The notes under the pieces: generated by a model | Seen by the model: only the letters and a program-made list of their open reading frames with translations | Databases searched by the model: none | Told to the model about the DNA's origin: nothing | Made by a program: the position numbers and the translations under genes | Virus record (IMG/VR): IMGVR_UViG_3300034063_001022 | Span: 1-22,201 of that record | Length of the DNA: 22,201 nt | Direction: 5' to 3' (one strand) | Origin: a virus | Part shown: piece by piece, positions 2,330 through 19,746 of the stretch | Layout of the letters: the number at the start of each line of letters is the position of its first letter | Numbering within the stretch: position 1 is the stretch's first letter

Positions 2330-3385
2330 TTAGTCGAAGGAGCTGGTGACGGTGAGGCGAACGATTCCGATGTTCTCGGTCTCGAAGACCTTTTCCCAGT
2401 TGGTGGCGGTGGCGAGGGTCTCGCGGGTGGGGTTGACGGTGCCCTTGTAACGGGAGCCGAGGGGGTGGTAAGCGTTGTGCCAGTCCACGGACATCGCGCT
2501 CGACTTGGCGAGGATGTCGCGGTCGGTCTCAGAGCGCAGGGCGGCCTGTTGGCCGGTGCCCACGGCGCCGGTAGCCATGACGTAGCAGGCGTACTTGGTG
2601 GACGAGCCACTGCCGGAGGTGGGGAGATCCTTGGAGCGGATCACGCGCATCCCCATGTAGAAGGGGACCGCGAGGTTGGCGGTGTAGGCAGCGGCGAGCG
2701 ACCCACCGAAGGCGTTGAGGGCCTGGATGCTGCCGGCGGCCACCGTGGAGGCGGTGACGCGGGCATCGGTGGCGGTCACGAAGTCGATCGCCTTGCGCTC
2801 CTTCAGGTCGGCGTAGACCTTGGGGGGCATGACGATGGCGCCGAGTTTGTCGGCGTCCTCGTTGAGGATGACCTCGGCGGCAGCGATTTGGCGGGGGCCG
2901 AGGTTGGTTTCGCCCGACCCACTCGCGTCAACACAGAGGTCTGCGAAGGCGGCGCCGGTGTTGGAGCTGCCGAGGGCACCGAACACGCCGTTCAGCGTGG
3001 CGATGAGGTCCTTCTGCTGCTGGTTGGCGATGTAGTCGGCGACTTTGGTGCCGATGGCGCCCATGGCGTCGGAGCCGGCGGCCATGCTGGCGAGGTCGCG
3101 GGCTTCCCACGCACGGCCCCGGTGGAGGATCACGCCGACCTGTTTGTCGGCGCTGATCTTGCCGGGGGTGAGGCTGGTGGTGTCGGTCAGGCGCTCGGCG
3201 TCACCGTCGAGGTTGGCCTTCCAGTTGGGGATGTTGACGGTATCGCCACCCTCGGTGGCGTTGAGGGCGTCGAGGGCTGTAACCACTCCCGACATCAGGA
3301 AACTGTTGCGGACGGTGGAAGCCTCGATGAGGTACGGCGTAAAAATCTCGGGGATGATTACGTCGCTGCGCAGGACAGCAGCCAT
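2330..3385 (-). CDS. Major capsid protein (Gp13-like, HK97-type fold)
   Basis: 351 residues. The N-terminus (SDVIIPEIFTPYLIEASTVR) and the following GDTVNIPNW, GKISADKQVGVILHRGRAW and C-terminal DWHNAYHPLGSRYKG segments match the Gp13-like phage coat protein family, which builds the icosahedral head with an HK97-type fold. Length is normal for the family. It follows the scaffold gene by 34 nt and precedes the decoration gene, the usual order of a head module. The start is the ATG at 3385 in MAAVLRSDV; the leader lacks a Shine-Dalgarno sequence but has CACCACAACCC. No protease gene or processing site is obvious nearby. Confidence 0.9.
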   Translation of the reverse strand: MAAVLRSDVIIPEIFTPYLIEASTVRNSFLMSGVVTALDALNATEGGDTVNIPNWKANLDGDAERLTDTTSLTPGKISADKQVGVILHRGRAWEARDLASMAAGSDAMGAIGTKVADYIANQQQKDLIATLNGVFGALGSSNTGAAFADLCVDASGSGETNLGPRQIAAAEVILNEDADKLGAIVMPPKVYADLKERKAIDFVTATDARVTASTVAAGSIQALNAFGGSLAAAYTANLAVPFYMGMRVIRSKDLPTSGSGSSTKYACYVMATGAVGTGQQAALRSETDRDILAKSSAMSVDWHNAYHPLGSRYKGTVNPTRETLATATNWEKVFETENIGIVRLTVTSSFD

Positions 3386-5045: not shown

Positions 5046-6659
5046 CTAGTCGGCGTTGCGGCCGGGGCGCATGGGGGTGGGGAGGGTCTGGCTGTTCAGG
5101 GATTCGCCTTGGCCGGCGTTCTGGAAGGCGAGGTCCGCACCACCCGGGGAGTCGGGGAGGCCGAGGCGGTTCATGGCGAGTTGCTCTTCGAGCATCTCCT
5201 GGACGGCGGAGATTTCTTCGTCGGGGTCGAGGCTGGCGGGGAGGACCTCACCATCGCGGAGGATGGTGATGAGGGTCTTGTGGCTGATCGCTTTTTGCAT
5301 GAAGAGTTGCAGGTAGGCGGTGACTTGGTTGCCGTCGAGGAGGCGGTTTTCGTAGTCGCGGGGGATGGAGATTTCGGGGGGTTCGATTCCGACGTAGGCG
5401 GAGGCGATGTCGAAGATTTCGCGGATGGCGCGTTCGAGGTCGCCCGCGATGACGGCCATGATCGAGTCGTTGTCGATGCGGTCGAGGCGGCGGGACTCGG
5501 CGGCTGCGTTTGTTAAGTTTTGTTGTGTGAGCGTGTTGATGCCGAGGCGGGAGATTTGATCTTCGAGGGCGGCGAGGCACTTGAGTTGGGCGTCGAAGGC
5601 GTCCGACGTGGGCTCGACGTATTTGGCGTCACCGCCGATGGGGAGGAGGACGGCGTTGTTGACGGAGAGACCGGCCTCTCCATCTTTGAGTTCGGTGTCG
5701 TCGAAGCCGAGGAGGGTGAGGATGGGGGAGGCGCCGACGTGGATGGAGTGGTGGTAGTCGCAGAAGCGCTGGGCGTAGGCGATGACGAGGTGAGCGATTT
5801 CGAGGAGGGGTGGGGTGCTGAGGAGGTTGCCGCGGCGGTTGGCGTAGACGGTGACGAGGGGGATCCGGTCTAGGCTGGTTGTGCTGGATTTGTAAATCTC
5901 CCAGGAGGTGGGGCCGGGGATTTGGTTGTTTGGGGGGAGGTTGGTGCGGGGGGTTTTGGGGCGCCAGAGTTCGTAGCGGCCGGGTTCGAGGACGCGGATT
6001 TGATCGGTGATTTCCTCGCCGAAGCGGCCGAGGTCTTCGGTGAGGATTACGGTTTCGCGGATGCGGACTTGGGAGAGGGCGCTCGACCAGCTGGTGCCGG
6101 AGGTGCGCCACCCCAGGATTTGTTTGGGGGTGATGGGGACGAGGTAGGGGGTGCGGGCTTGGGCGCGTTCTTCGGCGAGGTTGGAGGCGGGGGCGGTGTC
6201 GGGGAAATCGACGATGGTGCTGTGGTGGCCGTAGAGGAAGGCGGTGATGAGTTTGGTGCGGGCGTATTCGTCGAGGGTGGTGCCGTCGCCGGTTACGTCC
6301 TTGGCCCAGGTGGTCCAGTAGTCGTCGCCCTCGATCTGGATGCCTTTGCGGAGGATGACGCCCGCGGCTTGGGAGGCGAGGCGGGTCAGGAAGGGTGGGA
6401 GGGTGGCGTGGAAGATGCGGCGGTTGTAGGCGGCGTCGTCCTCGCGGGGTTCCTTGGGGATGTAGGTGGTGCTGTTGGCGCGGAGTGCGGTGGTGCCGCC
6501 GACGCAGAGGTCGATGGGGGCCCAGTCGGGCTCCATCGTTTGGACGAGTTGGGAGCGCTTCGAGGGGTCGGAGTCGTTGACGCCCGATGGAAGCGGGAGG
6601 GTGTAGGCCGGGGCTGCGGGGATGGCGGCGGCGACGGGGTAGCTGCTGTTGTCGCTCAC
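5046..6659 (-). CDS. Portal protein (DUF4055 family)
   Basis: 537 residues with a GTG start at 6659 (MSDNSSYPVAAA). Recognisable blocks: NRRIFHATLPPFLTRLASQAAG (about residues 80-100), TKLITAFLYGHHSTIVDFP, YLVPITPKQILGWR, the DRIPLVTVYANR strand, a long helix with YAQRFCDYHHSIHVGASPIL, and ISRLGINTLTQ. This is the pattern of DUF4055 phage proteins, which act as the dodecameric portal at the unique head vertex. Length and the TerL-portal-gpF-scaffold-capsid order support this. The gene follows a strong terminator and a GGAAAACTAGG element, suggesting an independent transcript. Confidence 0.85.
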   Translation of the reverse strand: MSDNSSYPVAAAIPAAPAYTLPLPSGVNDSDPSKRSQLVQTMEPDWAPIDLCVGGTTALRANSTTYIPKEPREDDAAYNRRIFHATLPPFLTRLASQAAGVILRKGIQIEGDDYWTTWAKDVTGDGTTLDEYARTKLITAFLYGHHSTIVDFPDTAPASNLAEERAQARTPYLVPITPKQILGWRTSGTSWSSALSQVRIRETVILTEDLGRFGEEITDQIRVLEPGRYELWRPKTPRTNLPPNNQIPGPTSWEIYKSSTTSLDRIPLVTVYANRRGNLLSTPPLLEIAHLVIAYAQRFCDYHHSIHVGASPILTLLGFDDTELKDGEAGLSVNNAVLLPIGGDAKYVEPTSDAFDAQLKCLAALEDQISRLGINTLTQQNLTNAAAESRRLDRIDNDSIMAVIAGDLERAIREIFDIASAYVGIEPPEISIPRDYENRLLDGNQVTAYLQLFMQKAISHKTLITILRDGEVLPASLDPDEEISAVQEMLEEQLAMNRLGLPDSPGGADLAFQNAGQGESLNSQTLPTPMRPGRNAD

Positions 6660-6969: not shown

Positions 6970-8367
6970 TCAGTAGGTGGGGAAGCTGCTGGAGCCGGTG
7001 GCGTAGCGGCGGAGGGGGGCGAGTTTGTAGGCGGCGTAGCCGAGGGCGTCGACGGGGCCGGAGGGGTCGTCGAGGCCGCCGCGGCCTTTGGCGGGCTTTC
7101 CACTTGAGTCGTAGGCTTGTTGTTCAAGGGCGCGGATGAGGTAGCGGCAGCGGTTGTGGACGCGGAGGCGGTTGGCGAGGAGGAGCATGTTGACGCAGTT
7201 CACACGGTCCTCGATTGGGGGGTTGGCGAGCTGGTTCTTGATGGAGAAGCCGGCTTTGCGGAGGATGGAGAGGTCGGATTCGGCGGCGTTGGTGGTGCTG
7301 CGGTGGCGGGAGGCGGCGTCGGGGATGATGACGATTTCGCCGGCTTTGAAGTGGGATTTGTAGGTGTCTTGGAGGAGGCGAACCATCGTGGGGGTGTCCT
7401 TGGGGTGGTGCTCGGCGACAACGTGGAACTCGGAGTCGCGGCGGACGAGGATTTCGGTGAAGACGGCGTTGATGTTGAAGTCGCAGCCGACGAATAGGCG
7501 GTCGTCGGGTTCGATTTCGGTGTCGCACCAGTGGGTGTCGCGGTCGAAGTAGGAGTAGACGGTGGTGTTTTCGAGGTTGGCGAATTGGCCTTCGAGGTAG
7601 GAGGCGAGGAGTTGTGGGGGGTAGGCGGACTTGAGGGTGTCGATGAAGCCCGGGGGGAGGTGGGGGTTGTCGGCGGTGCGGGCGCGGATGAGGCGGCGCT
7701 CGCGCTGGAGGGTGGTGAGGCGTTCCACGTTGGAGGTGGCTTCGGCGTCGTGGAAGTCCTGGACGAAGAGCCGGTGCATGGCGCGGTAGCCCTCGGGGGT
7801 GGAGGCGAGGGCGAGTTGGGGGAGCGATCCACCGCGGAGGCGGGCGAGGATCATTTCGACGGCTTTTTCGGCGATGAGTTGGGGGGAGGTGTCGATTTCG
7901 TCGGCGCAGGCGAAGGAGAGGTTTTGGCCGCGGATGCGGTTGAAGGTTTCGGTGGCGCGGCAGAGGAGGGAGGTCGTTCCACTTGGGGTGTGGATGGTGT
8001 ATTCGGGTTGGGGGGAGACGCGGAAGTCGTGGGGGATGTCGAACTCTTCGAGGAAGAGGTCGAACTCGCGGAGCCACACGTCGCGGATCATTATGTTGGT
8101 GGGCTCGAACACAGCCATGACCGTGTTGGGGTTGTAGGTGGCCTGGATGATGACCTTGGCGCATAGGGCGCGGGTCTTGCCGGCGCCGAAGCCGGCGCAG
8201 AGGCCGAGGATTTTGGTGTCCCGATCCACGCAGAAGTCGCGTTGGTGGGGGATCAGGCTGTCGAGGATGCGGGGGCGGAGTTTATCGAGGGCGTCGGTGC
8301 AGCGCGTTCCACTGCTGGTGGGGGTGGTGAGGCAGCCGCCTGCGGGGATTCGGGCCAGCAGGCTCAT
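6970..8367 (-). CDS. terL: Terminase large subunit
   Basis: 465 residues: the motor ATPase and nuclease that cuts and packages phage DNA. Walker A is CAGFGAGKT (residues 57-65), Walker B is FACADEID (D156/E157) and the coupling motif is LASTPEG (187-193). The C-terminal RNase H-like nuclease has its acidic residues at VGCDFN (D296), IIPDAASRH (D350) and [11 protein letters not shown] (D440). All key residues are present and the length is normal. Start at the ATG at 8367; the leader is CCCCCAAGTGGT without a Shine-Dalgarno sequence. The partner TerS-like gene lies at 9194-9538 in the same direction, but two plus-strand genes are wedged between, so the two are not co-transcribed in the usual simple way. 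Confidence 0.95.
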
Positions 8368-14064: not shown

Positions 14065-14904
14065 CTATGAATGCGATTTTTGGGCCTTGCCCTGAATGGC
14101 CTTGAATGCGTCGAGGCGGGCTAGGAAGCCGGCCTCGACGATGGTGAGGTCCGATCGACTTATGAATGTGAGATCGGGGGGTCCGACGCGGCGTGCCACC
14201 ACGATGAGGGCACCGGCGGGGCGGAGGCCGGTGAGATGCTCCAGTCCGAGGGAGTAGGCGCCTAGCTGGAGGGTGTAGTCGGCCAGCATGGCGGGGCTGC
14301 GCCGGTTGGCGGAGGTCTTGAAATCGACCACTAGGGGGGCGCCTAGTTCGATCTCGTCAGTGGGCACCACTGAGAGGAGGGCGTCGGCGGTGCCTGCGAA
14401 GCCGGCGGGGTGGTGAATGGCGAACTCGCTGGCGTGGCATTGGGTAACGTTCCCGGCGATCCACTCGGTGAGGCCGCGGGCATAGCCCTTGGCGCTGAGC
14501 GACACCGGGGGGAGGTTGGGGAGGGTGCGCTCCATTGCCCAGCGGAAGATGGGTGTGGGGATGTGGGGGAGGCCGTGGGCGTCGATGCGTAGGACGCCGC
14601 GGCGGTTTGCGGTGGCACGAGCCACCTTGTTTGCGGTCTTGAGGAGGTACTCGGCCTGTGAATGGGCTTGGGTGCCGCGGGTGGCGGCCACGGTGCGGTC
14701 CTGGGCGGCGGCGCCGGGGCCGTAGATGCGGTCTTGGCGAGCGACCCACCCTTCGAGGTTGGTTTTGTCGGCGGTGGCCCCGAGGATGGTGGTGACGGAG
14801 TTGAAGACGTTGCCGGCGGGGTCGCGGTAGACGCGGGTGGGGCCGCTGTCGTCACGTACCAGCTCGGAGCGGCGCAGGGCGGCTAGGGCGTCGGTGCGAT
14901 CCAC
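14065..14904 (-). CDS. PD-(D/E)XK exonuclease (MGME1/Cas4/RecB-like)
   Basis: 279 residues with a GTG start at 14904 that shares one base with the preceding TAG (TAGTG). The longer in-frame reading upstream is a shadow of the previous gene. Key residues: H81 in RGTQAHSQAEYLL, D174 in GFAGTADALL, D194-x-K196 in LVVDFKTSANRR and Q213-x3-Y217 in LQLGAYSLGLEHLTG. This is the complete H, D, DxK, QxxxY set of RecB/Cas4-type nucleases. The front (VFNSVTTILGATADKTNLEG) matches MGME1-like phage exonucleases. It likely degrades or processes DNA during phage recombination or host DNA breakdown. Three TGAATGC copies lie at its 3' end (14049, 14068, 14103). Confidence 0.85.
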   Translation of the reverse strand: MDRTDALAALRRSELVRDDSGPTRVYRDPAGNVFNSVTTILGATADKTNLEGWVARQDRIYGPGAAAQDRTVAATRGTQAHSQAEYLLKTANKVARATANRRGVLRIDAHGLPHIPTPIFRWAMERTLPNLPPVSLSAKGYARGLTEWIAGNVTQCHASEFAIHHPAGFAGTADALLSVVPTDEIELGAPLVVDFKTSANRRSPAMLADYTLQLGAYSLGLEHLTGLRPAGALIVVARRVGPPDLTFISRSDLTIVEAGFLARLDAFKAIQGKAQKSHS

Positions 14905-15494
14905 TAGCGAAGGCCGTCGTTCTTCTTGAATGCGGCGCCGGTGGGGCCGCGGAAGCGGTCGTCTTCGCCCCACCCGTTGCGCTGGTACTCCATCAGGAAT
15001 AGGAGGTTGCAGATGCAGTGGGCGAGGTGGGAGAGGCCGGACTCGGGGTCGGTGTCCTCGCCGCGCCACCAGGCCCAGGCGTGGCTCAGCAGAGCGCGGT
15101 AGCAGCGGCCCCATCGTGTGCCGTTGCACCAGTTGTAGGGGTCGTACTTTTCGGCGCCGTGGGCGAGTACCCGAGCCACTTCCTCTAGGGGGGCGGTGGG
15201 GAGGAGGTCAAGGCGGGGGCGTTGTGGTGCCGCAGGCGCCTTGCCTGTGGGCTCTTGCTGAGCATGGTGCGCGAAGGCCCATGCCTCCTCCGCTGAGTCA
15301 AACGGGCCAGCATGACCGGCACCATCAGGCGCGATACCGCACAATTCGAGAACTCCTGCAAAGTCGCTATGTACTTCGAGTACGGCTGCGCGTGCGTTAG
15401 AACGGAAACTTGATAGGCGTTTGAATGCGTACCACCCACGGGCCTCGGCGGGAAGGGGATCCCGGCACCATTGGGTAGGGGTGTTGTGTGTCAT
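14904..15494 (-). CDS. dATP/dGTP diphosphohydrolase-family protein (DUF5664-like)
   Basis: 196 residues. The C-terminal half has the signature RLDLLPTAPLEEVARVLAHG, AEKYDPYNW, YRALLSHAWAWWRGED then DPESGLSHLAHCICNLLFL. I recognise this as the phage domain annotated as dATP/dGTP diphosphohydrolase N-terminal (formerly DUF5664), an all-helical MazG-like fold. E104/E105, H138, E146, D149 and H156 are plausible metal ligands. Members are linked to purine dNTP turnover, and related enzymes serve phages with 2-aminoadenine DNA. The N-terminal 90 residues look like a separate small domain (GWYAFKRLSSF, GHAGPFDSAEEAWAFA). Enzymatic activity is inferred. Confidence 0.78.
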   Translation of the reverse strand: MTHNTPTQWCRDPLPAEARGWYAFKRLSSFRSNARAAVLEVHSDFAGVLELCGIAPDGAGHAGPFDSAEEAWAFAHHAQQEPTGKAPAAPQRPRLDLLPTAPLEEVARVLAHGAEKYDPYNWCNGTRWGRCYRALLSHAWAWWRGEDTDPESGLSHLAHCICNLLFLMEYQRNGWGEDDRFRGPTGAAFKKNDGLR

Positions 15495-16569: not shown

Positions 16570-16860
16570 ATGACTCGTGCTAATGGCGGCGGATCTCAGG
16601 GCGGCCCGGGATGGGCTGGGCAGATTGCTGTGGGGTCTGTGACGGCTGTGGTGGGGTGGGCGTTGGGGGCGGGGAGTGGGATGGTCAGCTCGTTCCAGAA
16701 GATGGAGGTGACGCTGCGCGAGGTGTGCAAGCAGATTGAGGAGAAGAAGGGGGTTGATACCCGGCAGGACAAGGAGCTGGTGGAAGGGAAGCGCCACGAC
16801 GACAGGCAGGACCGGGAGATTGAGAGGATCCTGGACCACTTGAAGCTGCCGCGGCGCTAG
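16570..16860 (+). CDS. Small single-pass membrane protein with coiled-coil tail
   Basis: 96 residues. A Gly-rich N-terminus precedes a transmembrane helix at about 15-36 (GWAGQIAVGSVTAVVGWALG). A long, highly charged helical tail follows (EVTLREVCKQIEEKKGVDTR, EIERILDHLKLPRR). It is the only plus-strand gene inside the right-hand leftward module and converges on the haloperoxidase gene with 12 nt between stops. The topology (membrane anchor plus soluble coiled coil) occurs in inner spanins, antiholins and phage membrane adaptors, but no specific family is recognised. Confidence 0.65.
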   Translation: MTRANGGGSQGGPGWAGQIAVGSVTAVVGWALGAGSGMVSSFQKMEVTLREVCKQIEEKKGVDTRQDKELVEGKRHDDRQDREIERILDHLKLPRR

Positions 16861-16872
16861 GTCACTTGATGG

Positions 16873-18162
16873 TTACTTGATGGTCACCACCTGGCCGTCG
16901 AAGCCGATGAAGGCGGTGGTGCCCCAGGGTTCGAGGGAGGCGGCTTTGGCCTCTTGGAGGAGTTGGACTGCGGCGGCTTGACCTAGGAGGAGGCCGGCGG
17001 TGATGTCGGAGCGGTAGTGGACGCCCAGGGCGACGCGGCCGAACGACTTGTTCCACACCCATTTGCGGATCTCGCGGTGGATCGTGAGGGCGGTGGTGTT
17101 GGCGGTGACGAGGGCCGTTCCATCGGTGCTGGCCTGGAGGGGGACGCCGGGCCAGGGGCTGTCGGCGATGAGGGCCATGAGGATCACGGCTTCTGCGGCG
17201 GCGGTGGCGGCGTGGCCGGAGACCCACGAGGGGTGGAGGGGGGAGCCCTCGGCGATGGGGAGGGGGAGGTGGCCGTTCCACTCGGAGAGGAGGGGGGCGC
17301 CGCGCTCGTGCCAGAGGGGGTGGAGGCGCTCGGGGGTGGCGAGGAGTTCCTCGGGGCGGGCGCGGCGTTGCTGGGGGTCGGGGTTGTACTTGACGATCCA
17401 GCAGTCGCGGAACGCTCGATCGCTGGCCTCGGCGAGGAGGCACTGGGCGAAGGCGGGGCCGCCGTAGGAGGTGAAGCCGGCTTCGGCGGGGAGGGCGGGG
17501 AAGAGGGAGCTGGGGCGAACTCCTAACGACTGCAGAATTAGGAGTGCGTGGAGACCCATCAGGTAGGGCGGGTCCTGGTGCATGGCCGAGGCCAGGGCAC
17601 GGGGGGTGTGGATGTAGACCGACTCACCGTAGCGCTGGGCCTCGGTGGGCGAACCACGCAGCATGGCGGCGCGGGTCTCCGGGGTGACGCCGTAGGCACC
17701 GGTGCGGAGGGTGTAGCGCTGCTCGGCCTTCATGGCGCCCATGGGGACGGGCAGGAGGAGGAGCTGGCTGATGTAGGGCTCGGGGGCGGTCTGCTCCTCG
17801 GGGCGGAAGACCGACGGCGGTCTAGTGGGGCCGAGGAGAGTTTCGCTGAGGCCGTCTAGGGGGTTTCCTTGCGACCAGAACGTGTTGCGAATGTTGCGGA
17901 AGGGGGTGTCGGCGACGCGGGTTAGGAGGGTGGTGAGTTCCACCAGTTCGGCAGCGGTTTGGGCGCTGTCGTCGGCGGGGAATGGGGTGAGGCCGCGGGC
18001 TGAGGCGGGCCAAGGGAGGACGCCGAAGCGGGGGCTGGCGAGGCGCGAGCGACCCTGCAGGGCGATGGCGCGGAAGGCTGCGTCGCGCTGCTCCGCGGGG
18101 GCGAGGAGGGCGGCGGTGAGGGTCTCGGGGACGTGGCCTTTCGACCAGGGTTGGTTGGGCAT
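16873..18162 (-). CDS. Vanadium-dependent haloperoxidase-like protein (PAP2 superfamily)
   Basis: 429 residues from the ATG at 18162 (MPNQPWSKGHVPETL); a longer upstream reading overlaps the previous gene and is rejected. Family blocks in order: EPYISQLLLLPVPMGAMKAE (128-147) with QRY, YIHTPRALASAMHQDPPYL, SYGGPAF, CWIVKYNPDPQQRRARPEEL, EGSPLHPSWVSGHAATAAAE and FGRVALGVHYRSDITAGLLL. Predicted vanadate or phosphate pocket: K258, R269-P270, S315-G316-H317 (acid-base His), R376 and H382 (R-x5-H spacing kept, H382 the vanadium-binding His). The Lys-to-Arg-Pro spacing is longer than in classic enzymes. Such enzymes oxidise halides with H2O2; related PAP2 members are phosphatases. No signal peptide is seen. 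The fold is clear, the reaction is inferred. Confidence 0.85.
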   Translation of the reverse strand: MPNQPWSKGHVPETLTAALLAPAEQRDAAFRAIALQGRSRLASPRFGVLPWPASARGLTPFPADDSAQTAAELVELTTLLTRVADTPFRNIRNTFWSQGNPLDGLSETLLGPTRPPSVFRPEEQTAPEPYISQLLLLPVPMGAMKAEQRYTLRTGAYGVTPETRAAMLRGSPTEAQRYGESVYIHTPRALASAMHQDPPYLMGLHALLILQSLGVRPSSLFPALPAEAGFTSYGGPAFAQCLLAEASDRAFRDCWIVKYNPDPQQRRARPEELLATPERLHPLWHERGAPLLSEWNGHLPLPIAEGSPLHPSWVSGHAATAAAEAVILMALIADSPWPGVPLQASTDGTALVTANTTALTIHREIRKWVWNKSFGRVALGVHYRSDITAGLLLGQAAAVQLLQEAKAASLEPWGTTAFIGFDGQVVTIK

Positions 18163-19131: not shown

Positions 19132-19746
19132 TCACACTTTTGCGGGGGTGACGGATTCGGGTTGATTCTGGTATTTGCCGGAGCGATCTTGGTAGGTGGT
19201 TTCGCAGGGCTCGCCTTCAAAGAAGAGGAGCTGGCAGATACCTTCGTTGGCGTAGATGCGGCAGTCCGCACCACTTGAATTGCTGAACTCTAGGGTGAGG
19301 TGGCCGCTCCACCCGGCCTCTACGGGGGTCATGTTGGCGATGATGCCGAGGCGGGCGTAGGTGCTCTTGCCGATGCACAGGCCGGTGATGTTGGGGGGCA
19401 TGTTGATGTGCTCCAGTGCCACCCCAAGGCCGTAGGTGTGGGCGGGGAGGATGAAGAAGTCACCATCCTCGTCATTGTGCAGCTCTGCGGGTTCGAGGTT
19501 TGCAGGGTTGAACCGCTTGGGGTTCATCACGGTGCCGGGGATGTGGCGGAAGATCAGGAACTCCTTTGGTGATAGGCGTAAGTCGTAGCCGTAGGAGGAG
19601 CAGCCGTAGGAGATGGCAGGCACGGTGCGCCAGAAGTGCAGTGCTGGGCCCCGGTCAAGCTGCACCTCCCGCACCAGCTCCGGCACGAAAGGTTTGACCA
19701 GACCGAAGAGGCCCTCATCCTGGAGCCAGCGGTCGTTTTTCAGCAT
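19132..19746 (-). CDS. dcd: dCTP deaminase
   Basis: 204 residues. Converts dCTP to dUTP (or dUMP in bifunctional forms), feeding dTTP synthesis. Diagnostic blocks: YGYDLRLSPKEFLIF, GLCIGKSTYARLGIIANMTP (123-141), VEAGWSGHLTLEFSNSSG (catalytic Glu expected at E153 in TLEF), NEGICQLLFFEG and the C-terminal TYQDRSGKYQNQ lid typical of trimeric Dcd/dUTPase folds. Length is normal. The start at 19746 follows CACACACGAGCCCACCCC without a Shine-Dalgarno sequence. A TAGACT box 24 nt upstream and a TTGTT-N9-AACAA-like site further up suggest its own promoter. Confidence 0.92.
   Translation of the reverse strand: MLKNDRWLQDEGLFGLVKPFVPELVREVQLDRGPALHFWRTVPAISYGCSSYGYDLRLSPKEFLIFRHIPGTVMNPKRFNPANLEPAELHNDEDGDFFILPAHTYGLGVALEHINMPPNITGLCIGKSTYARLGIIANMTPVEAGWSGHLTLEFSNSSGADCRIYANEGICQLLFFEGEPCETTYQDRSGKYQNQPESVTPAKV

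Follow-up and report, generated by a model that had tools for sequence, protein, structure and literature searches.

A bromoperoxidase-type vanadium haloperoxidase gene, predicted from sequence and fold, in a probable cyanophage and in other phages

The gene described here lies at 16873..18162 on the minus strand of a virus record from IMG/VR (IMGVR_UViG_3300034063_001022), which was analysed in full and is referred to as the window (22,201 bases). Sequence and predicted fold support its product as a bromoperoxidase-type vanadium haloperoxidase. The protein is probably a compact, cytosolic, vanadate-dependent bromo- or iodoperoxidase of the type known from algal bromoperoxidases, encoded by an auxiliary metabolic gene that phages have retained; its activity and its role are those that we infer from its relatives and its surroundings. 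A preliminary description of the same DNA had proposed a vanadium haloperoxidase-like enzyme, and the sequence matches and fold matches in the PDB agree on this identity.

The gene comprises 429 codons and a stop (stop at 16873; coding 16876-18162), in a frame that is open from 18240 to 16873. The start is an ATG at 18162 and is conserved among relatives (MPNQPWSKGH / MNTPFSKGH). The interval and the length had been given correctly in the preliminary description, the strand being the minus one, as the plus strand of 16873-18162 contains many stops. Values of dN/dS of 0.27-0.30, obtained in comparisons with the window or with contig L002, indicate purifying selection, and with its full reading frame the gene is intact. 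Pfam assigns the 429-residue protein to PAP2 with an E value of 9e-9, which passes the Pfam cut-off.

In a phmmer search against the PDB, ten distinct sequences of vanadium bromoperoxidases were matched with E 2e-18 to 6e-11; just two other matches were obtained, both with E 0.53. The best matches are thus bromoperoxidases and not the non-catalytic PAP2 proteins considered earlier as the other outcome. The top match was the Ascophyllum nodosum enzyme (1qi9, E 2e-18), of which K341, R349, S416, G417, H418, R480 and H486 are taken by us to be the vanadate site. In the alignment K258, R269, S315, G316 and H317 of the phage protein pair with the first five of these and R376 and H382 with the last two, so that 7 of the 7 vanadate-site residues are accounted for. 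Their codons, all on the minus strand, are found at 17356..17391 (K258-R269, the vanadate-binding Lys and the first Arg, separated by three residues more than in 1qi9, K-x10-R), 17212..17220 (S315-G316-H317, the vanadate-binding SGH including the acid/base His) and 17017..17037 (R376-H382, the second Arg and the vanadium-binding His). R269, H317, R376 and H382 are where they had been placed before, and the R376-x5-H382 spacing holds. The equivalent vanadate-site residues of the fungal enzyme are given in PMC9144378.

Two further residues, a Trp and a His near the halide site, are also paired with 1qi9: W255 (codon 17398..17400, minus strand) with W338 and H310 (codon 17233..17235, minus strand) with H411. 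The counterpart of H310 in the fungal chloroperoxidase is Phe397 (PMC9144378), and His at this place is the bromoperoxidase-type residue, a position that does not by itself decide the choice of halide (PMC9144378). The motifs of vanadium haloperoxidases are PxYxSGHA and LxxxxAxxRxxxGxHxxxD (PMC9144378). The former appears in the window protein as 311-PSWVSGHA-318, with Trp replacing Tyr, and the latter has R376, G380, H382 and D386 in register while its L and A are not kept.

In an alignment of 96 sequences (82 cellular and 14 viral) the position of H310 is His in all 96 rows, and that of W255 is Trp in every viral row and in 38 of the cellular ones. The vanadate-site K, R, G, H, R and H, together with W255 and H310, are present in 14/14 viral rows. 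Position 315 is Ser or Ala in the viral rows and Ser, Ala or Gly across the relatives, the other vanadate residues being conserved. The conservation of W255 and H310 would favour a peroxidase over a phosphatase.

The long Lys-to-Arg spacing had been read as a possible sign of a different substrate or activity. The x10 gap between K258 and R269 is real. Every one of the 82 cellular relatives has x7, as do 11 of the 14 viral rows, and x10 is confined to the window, L002 and L004. The suggestion of a changed activity was not supported, because L005, a phage relative 67% identical to the window protein, has the canonical x7, which makes x10 weak evidence for such a change. Most simply, the gap would be a tolerated loop insertion within one sub-lineage. 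A compact viral lineage, about 35-37% identical (L117 2998-4221, also L118 and L119), keeps the vanadate residues with a Lys-Arg spacing of x6 and lacks the Asp equivalent to D386.

An AlphaFold model of the window protein, built on an alignment of 44 rows drawn from the window and the collected loci, reached a pLDDT of 89 and a pTM of 0.91. Its best match among solved folds was 1qi9_A (TMq 0.84, E 1e-18), followed by the Corallina and Acaryochloris enzymes (TMq 0.67-0.81); acid phosphatases, PAP2 proteins and bacterial chloro- and iodoperoxidases gave TMq of about 0.27 or less among the entries listed. The structural comparison proposed at the outset therefore returned a bromoperoxidase fold for the predicted model. 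The fold match and the alignment, taken together, suggest that the vanadate residues lie in a single pocket, and for the predicted protein the assignment of fold and site is well supported.

The Ascophyllum enzyme, the closest in both sequence and fold, shares the seven vanadate residues and the W338/H411 pair, but identity is only about 24%, the phage protein has 429 residues against 556, and it carries three extra Lys-Arg residues and no signal peptide. The cyanobacterial bromoperoxidases (Acaryochloris 5lpc/8q21; Synechococcus CC9311) have the same catalytic motif set and fold class and belong to the probable host phylum, but they are only distant, as judged from Acaryochloris (TMq 0.67-0.70) and the Cyanobium copy L084. 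Giant viruses (Hokovirus, Sylvanvirus and Yasminevirus) encode PAP2 superfamily proteins whose predicted structures match the model with TMq 0.81-0.87, and phages are thus not alone among viruses in carrying such a gene; these are, however, viruses of eukaryotes, and their proteins have 20-24% identity and are annotated just as PAP2 or uncharacterised. The giant-virus entries with a bromoperoxidase-like predicted fold are BFVD A0A1V0SGK0, A0A3G5AI90 and A0A5K0U6L7. Class A acid phosphatases and other PAP2 phosphatases have oxyanion-pocket residues in common with the phage protein but are much shorter and match its fold poorly (TMq about 0.27 or less). The nearest functional precedent is VirX1, the flavin-dependent halogenase of cyanophage Syn10 and also a cyanophage-encoded halogen-oxidising enzyme (PMC6864650, PMC8407142), although it is an unrelated flavin enzyme that differs in fold and chemistry.

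The window is a real phage contig, as had been claimed, since terminase, portal and capsid genes are on the same record. All three are on the minus strand: the terminase large subunit at 6970..8367 (best phage match Synechococcus phage S-H1, 42% identical), the portal protein at 5046..6659 (best phage match cyanophage S-2L, 35% identical) and the major capsid protein at 2330..3385 (60% identical to Synechococcus phage S-H1). Mu F-like and scaffold genes are also present. Because capsid, terminase and portal are nearest to cyanophages, the host is likely a picocyanobacterium. The window and 15 related records contain no psbA, and tRNA genes were absent from the window and from L099-L101.

The gene lies near nucleotide-metabolism genes, with three neighbours on the same strand. 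Upstream is a dCTP deaminase (19132..19746, minus; PHROG 1663, E 1e-54; TIGR02274), and downstream are a dATP/dGTP diphosphohydrolase N-terminal domain protein (14904..15494, minus; PF18909, E 4e-30) and a PD-(D/E)XK exonuclease (14065..15129, minus; PHROG 298, E 4e-25; PF12705). The diphosphohydrolase-domain protein has 196 residues, and only the N-terminal domain was matched. A small convergent ORF of 96 residues (16570..16860, plus) encodes one hydrophobic segment followed by a charged tail. L002 has the same gene order as the window, and two contigs from other metagenomes contain the gene at 93% protein identity.

Relatives were identified in at least 24 IMG/VR contigs, several of them near-copies of one another; the scan used peptide patterns and the count is thus a lower bound. 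The carriers include a siphophage type, a P2-like type with integrase and a T4-like type. L005 has an integrase, a P2-type tail protein and endolysins; G010 has a T4-type capsid protein; and G007, G009 and G015 have a terminase. Other carriers are tRNA-rich contigs of 95-619 kb, most of which contain no hallmark gene among the few families searched, and their viral status is for this reason less certain. Searches of 50,697 annotated phage records with the window protein and with two distant viral relatives gave no match. The terminase match in G009 (C1:28586-29995) runs through two stop codons, a TAG and a TAA, which may point to a broken gene, a frame change or an altered code.

The neighbourhoods of these relatives are diverse. 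A convergent gene for a small membrane protein meets the end of the peroxidase gene in L005 and lies on the same strand as the two endolysins that follow it; the small ORF of the window is homologous to this membrane-protein gene (E 5e-11, in a single comparison) and occupies the same convergent place. L004 has an ORF resembling the small convergent one and, read by eye, a thymidylate kinase-like ORF, and L117 has a lysozyme-like ORF nearby, also read by eye. In L130 and L134 the gene is close to structural-looking ORFs (by eye), suggesting a late expression there. Both (L130 and L134, 1-7293) are low-GC contigs, with a capsid-like ORF in L130 and PKD-like repeat ORFs, again by eye. No gene order shared by all viral lineages was found. 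Even L010 and L012, whose peroxidases are 73-80% identical, have hardly any neighbours in common, which suggests that the gene moves independently of the genes around it. Since phage genes flank it in several contigs that are independent of one another, it can be classed from sequence as an auxiliary gene of phages.

Cellular genomes gave no matches with a narrow alignment and 289 confirmed relatives with a broader one. A 96-protein tree places all the viral rows on one side of a single branch. Two careful trees supported the viral/cellular branch with 96/99, and with 98/100 when 17 viral rows were included; for the cellular rows the 80 best of the 289 relatives were used, and the trees have long branches. 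The trees place viral and cellular proteins apart, a single origin not being beyond doubt from these sequences. A survey of 400 genomes of the Cyanobium family found 11 with any match, all distant, and the Cyanobium copy L084 is elsewhere in the tree. A recent capture from the host was rejected, since all 17 viral proteins are on one side of the 98/100 branch and picocyanobacteria have no close copies. A link to cyanobacterial host homologues, with which the preliminary description had proposed a phylogeny, was not supported: the viral proteins form a branch of their own and the picocyanobacterial copies are distant. An AU test of a closer position for a Rhizobium plasmid copy gave p 0.19.

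In the proposed function, H382 would bind vanadate, held by K258, R269, S315, G316 and R376, and the bound vanadate would use H2O2 to oxidise bromide or iodide to hypohalous acid. This is the chemistry of the family, in which vanadate peroxidases use H2O2 to oxidise halide to hypohalous acid (PMC9144378). An active bromoperoxidase in Synechococcus CC9311, as cited in PMC3591785 and PMC10427571, lends support to the peroxidase reading. With less certainty, the enzyme may drain H2O2 during infection of a photosynthesising host. No signal-peptide-like N-terminus was found in the window protein or in the other viral proteins examined, so the enzyme would be cytosolic and, again less certainly, might leave the cell only at lysis. 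What counts against the peroxidase reading is the unusual x10 spacing and the inferred nature of hosts and habitats; freshwater hosts would have little bromide on offer, which counts against a bromoperoxidase role.

The deaminase, diphosphohydrolase and exonuclease neighbours could instead suit a nucleotide phosphatase. The protein would then be a PAP2 member with phosphatase activity, either gained anew or never lost, that may act on nucleotides, for example, and its haloperoxidase look would be a matter of ancestry. Vanadate and phosphate sites are common to both families (PMC9144378), Pfam assigns PAP2, and nucleotide enzymes adjoin the gene in the window, as does the thymidylate kinase-like ORF in L004. 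Still, we regard this as unlikely: W255 and H310 are retained in every viral row, the match to phosphatase folds is poor against the TMq of 0.84 for the bromoperoxidase, and elsewhere in phages the gene adjoins lysis or structural-looking genes. Another alternative is an active haloperoxidase that serves attack and not protection, its hypohalous acid or halogenated products harming competitors or changing cell-cell signals at lysis. In L005 the gene abuts a convergent lysis cassette, the window has a homologue of the small membrane-protein gene at the corresponding place, the similar small ORF in L004 and the lysozyme-like ORF read by eye in L117 agree, and without a signal peptide release would require lysis. 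Convergent neighbours, however, are not co-transcribed, the same-strand neighbours in the window are replication-type genes and other viral relatives sit among other genes, and attack thus appears a rather improbable purpose.

Vanadium haloperoxidases are widespread in bacteria, as the 289 relatives illustrate, and the gene might in principle be a product of misassembly or a recent host passenger lacking a phage function. This is very improbable. The gene order is repeated in contigs from two other metagenomes, relatives are found in unrelated phages, the gene is under purifying selection, the viral branch stands apart from the cellular one and the Cyanobium-family genomes have no close cellular copy; the conserved phage contexts argue strongly against it.

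The earlier finding is sound as to the identity and the setting of the gene and right in part as to its interpretation; the enzyme is a phage-specific form of a known kind. No paper on a phage-encoded vanadium haloperoxidase was found among the open-access papers searched. In nature, vanadium haloperoxidases are major agents of bromide and iodide oxidation, and algae use theirs to make bleach-like oxidants from hydrogen peroxide and bromide. A tentative idea, which we hold to be possible and not yet probable, is that an old branch of vanadium peroxidases specific to phages is common to several unrelated phage types and governs the chemistry of peroxide and halide inside infected cells or when these lyse, so that viruses would take a direct part in the cycling of bromine or iodine. 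If the phage enzymes work, infection could alter how well picocyanobacteria tolerate peroxide, and the reactive halogen or halogenated products that lysis could set free would give viruses a way into halogen cycling. The compact phage form would also be a small and possibly handy halogenation catalyst.

Cyanophage S-2L, the source of the nearest relative of the portal protein (window 5046-6659, minus), has 2-aminoadenine DNA, and a general scan of the window ORFs recognised no base-replacement gene. The Rhizobium copy is on the Rhizobium phaseoli plasmid pRphaN671a (L007 2824-3951), a distant homologue at 36% identity annotated as hypothetical, with Shedu and AbiGi-type defence genes a few genes away.
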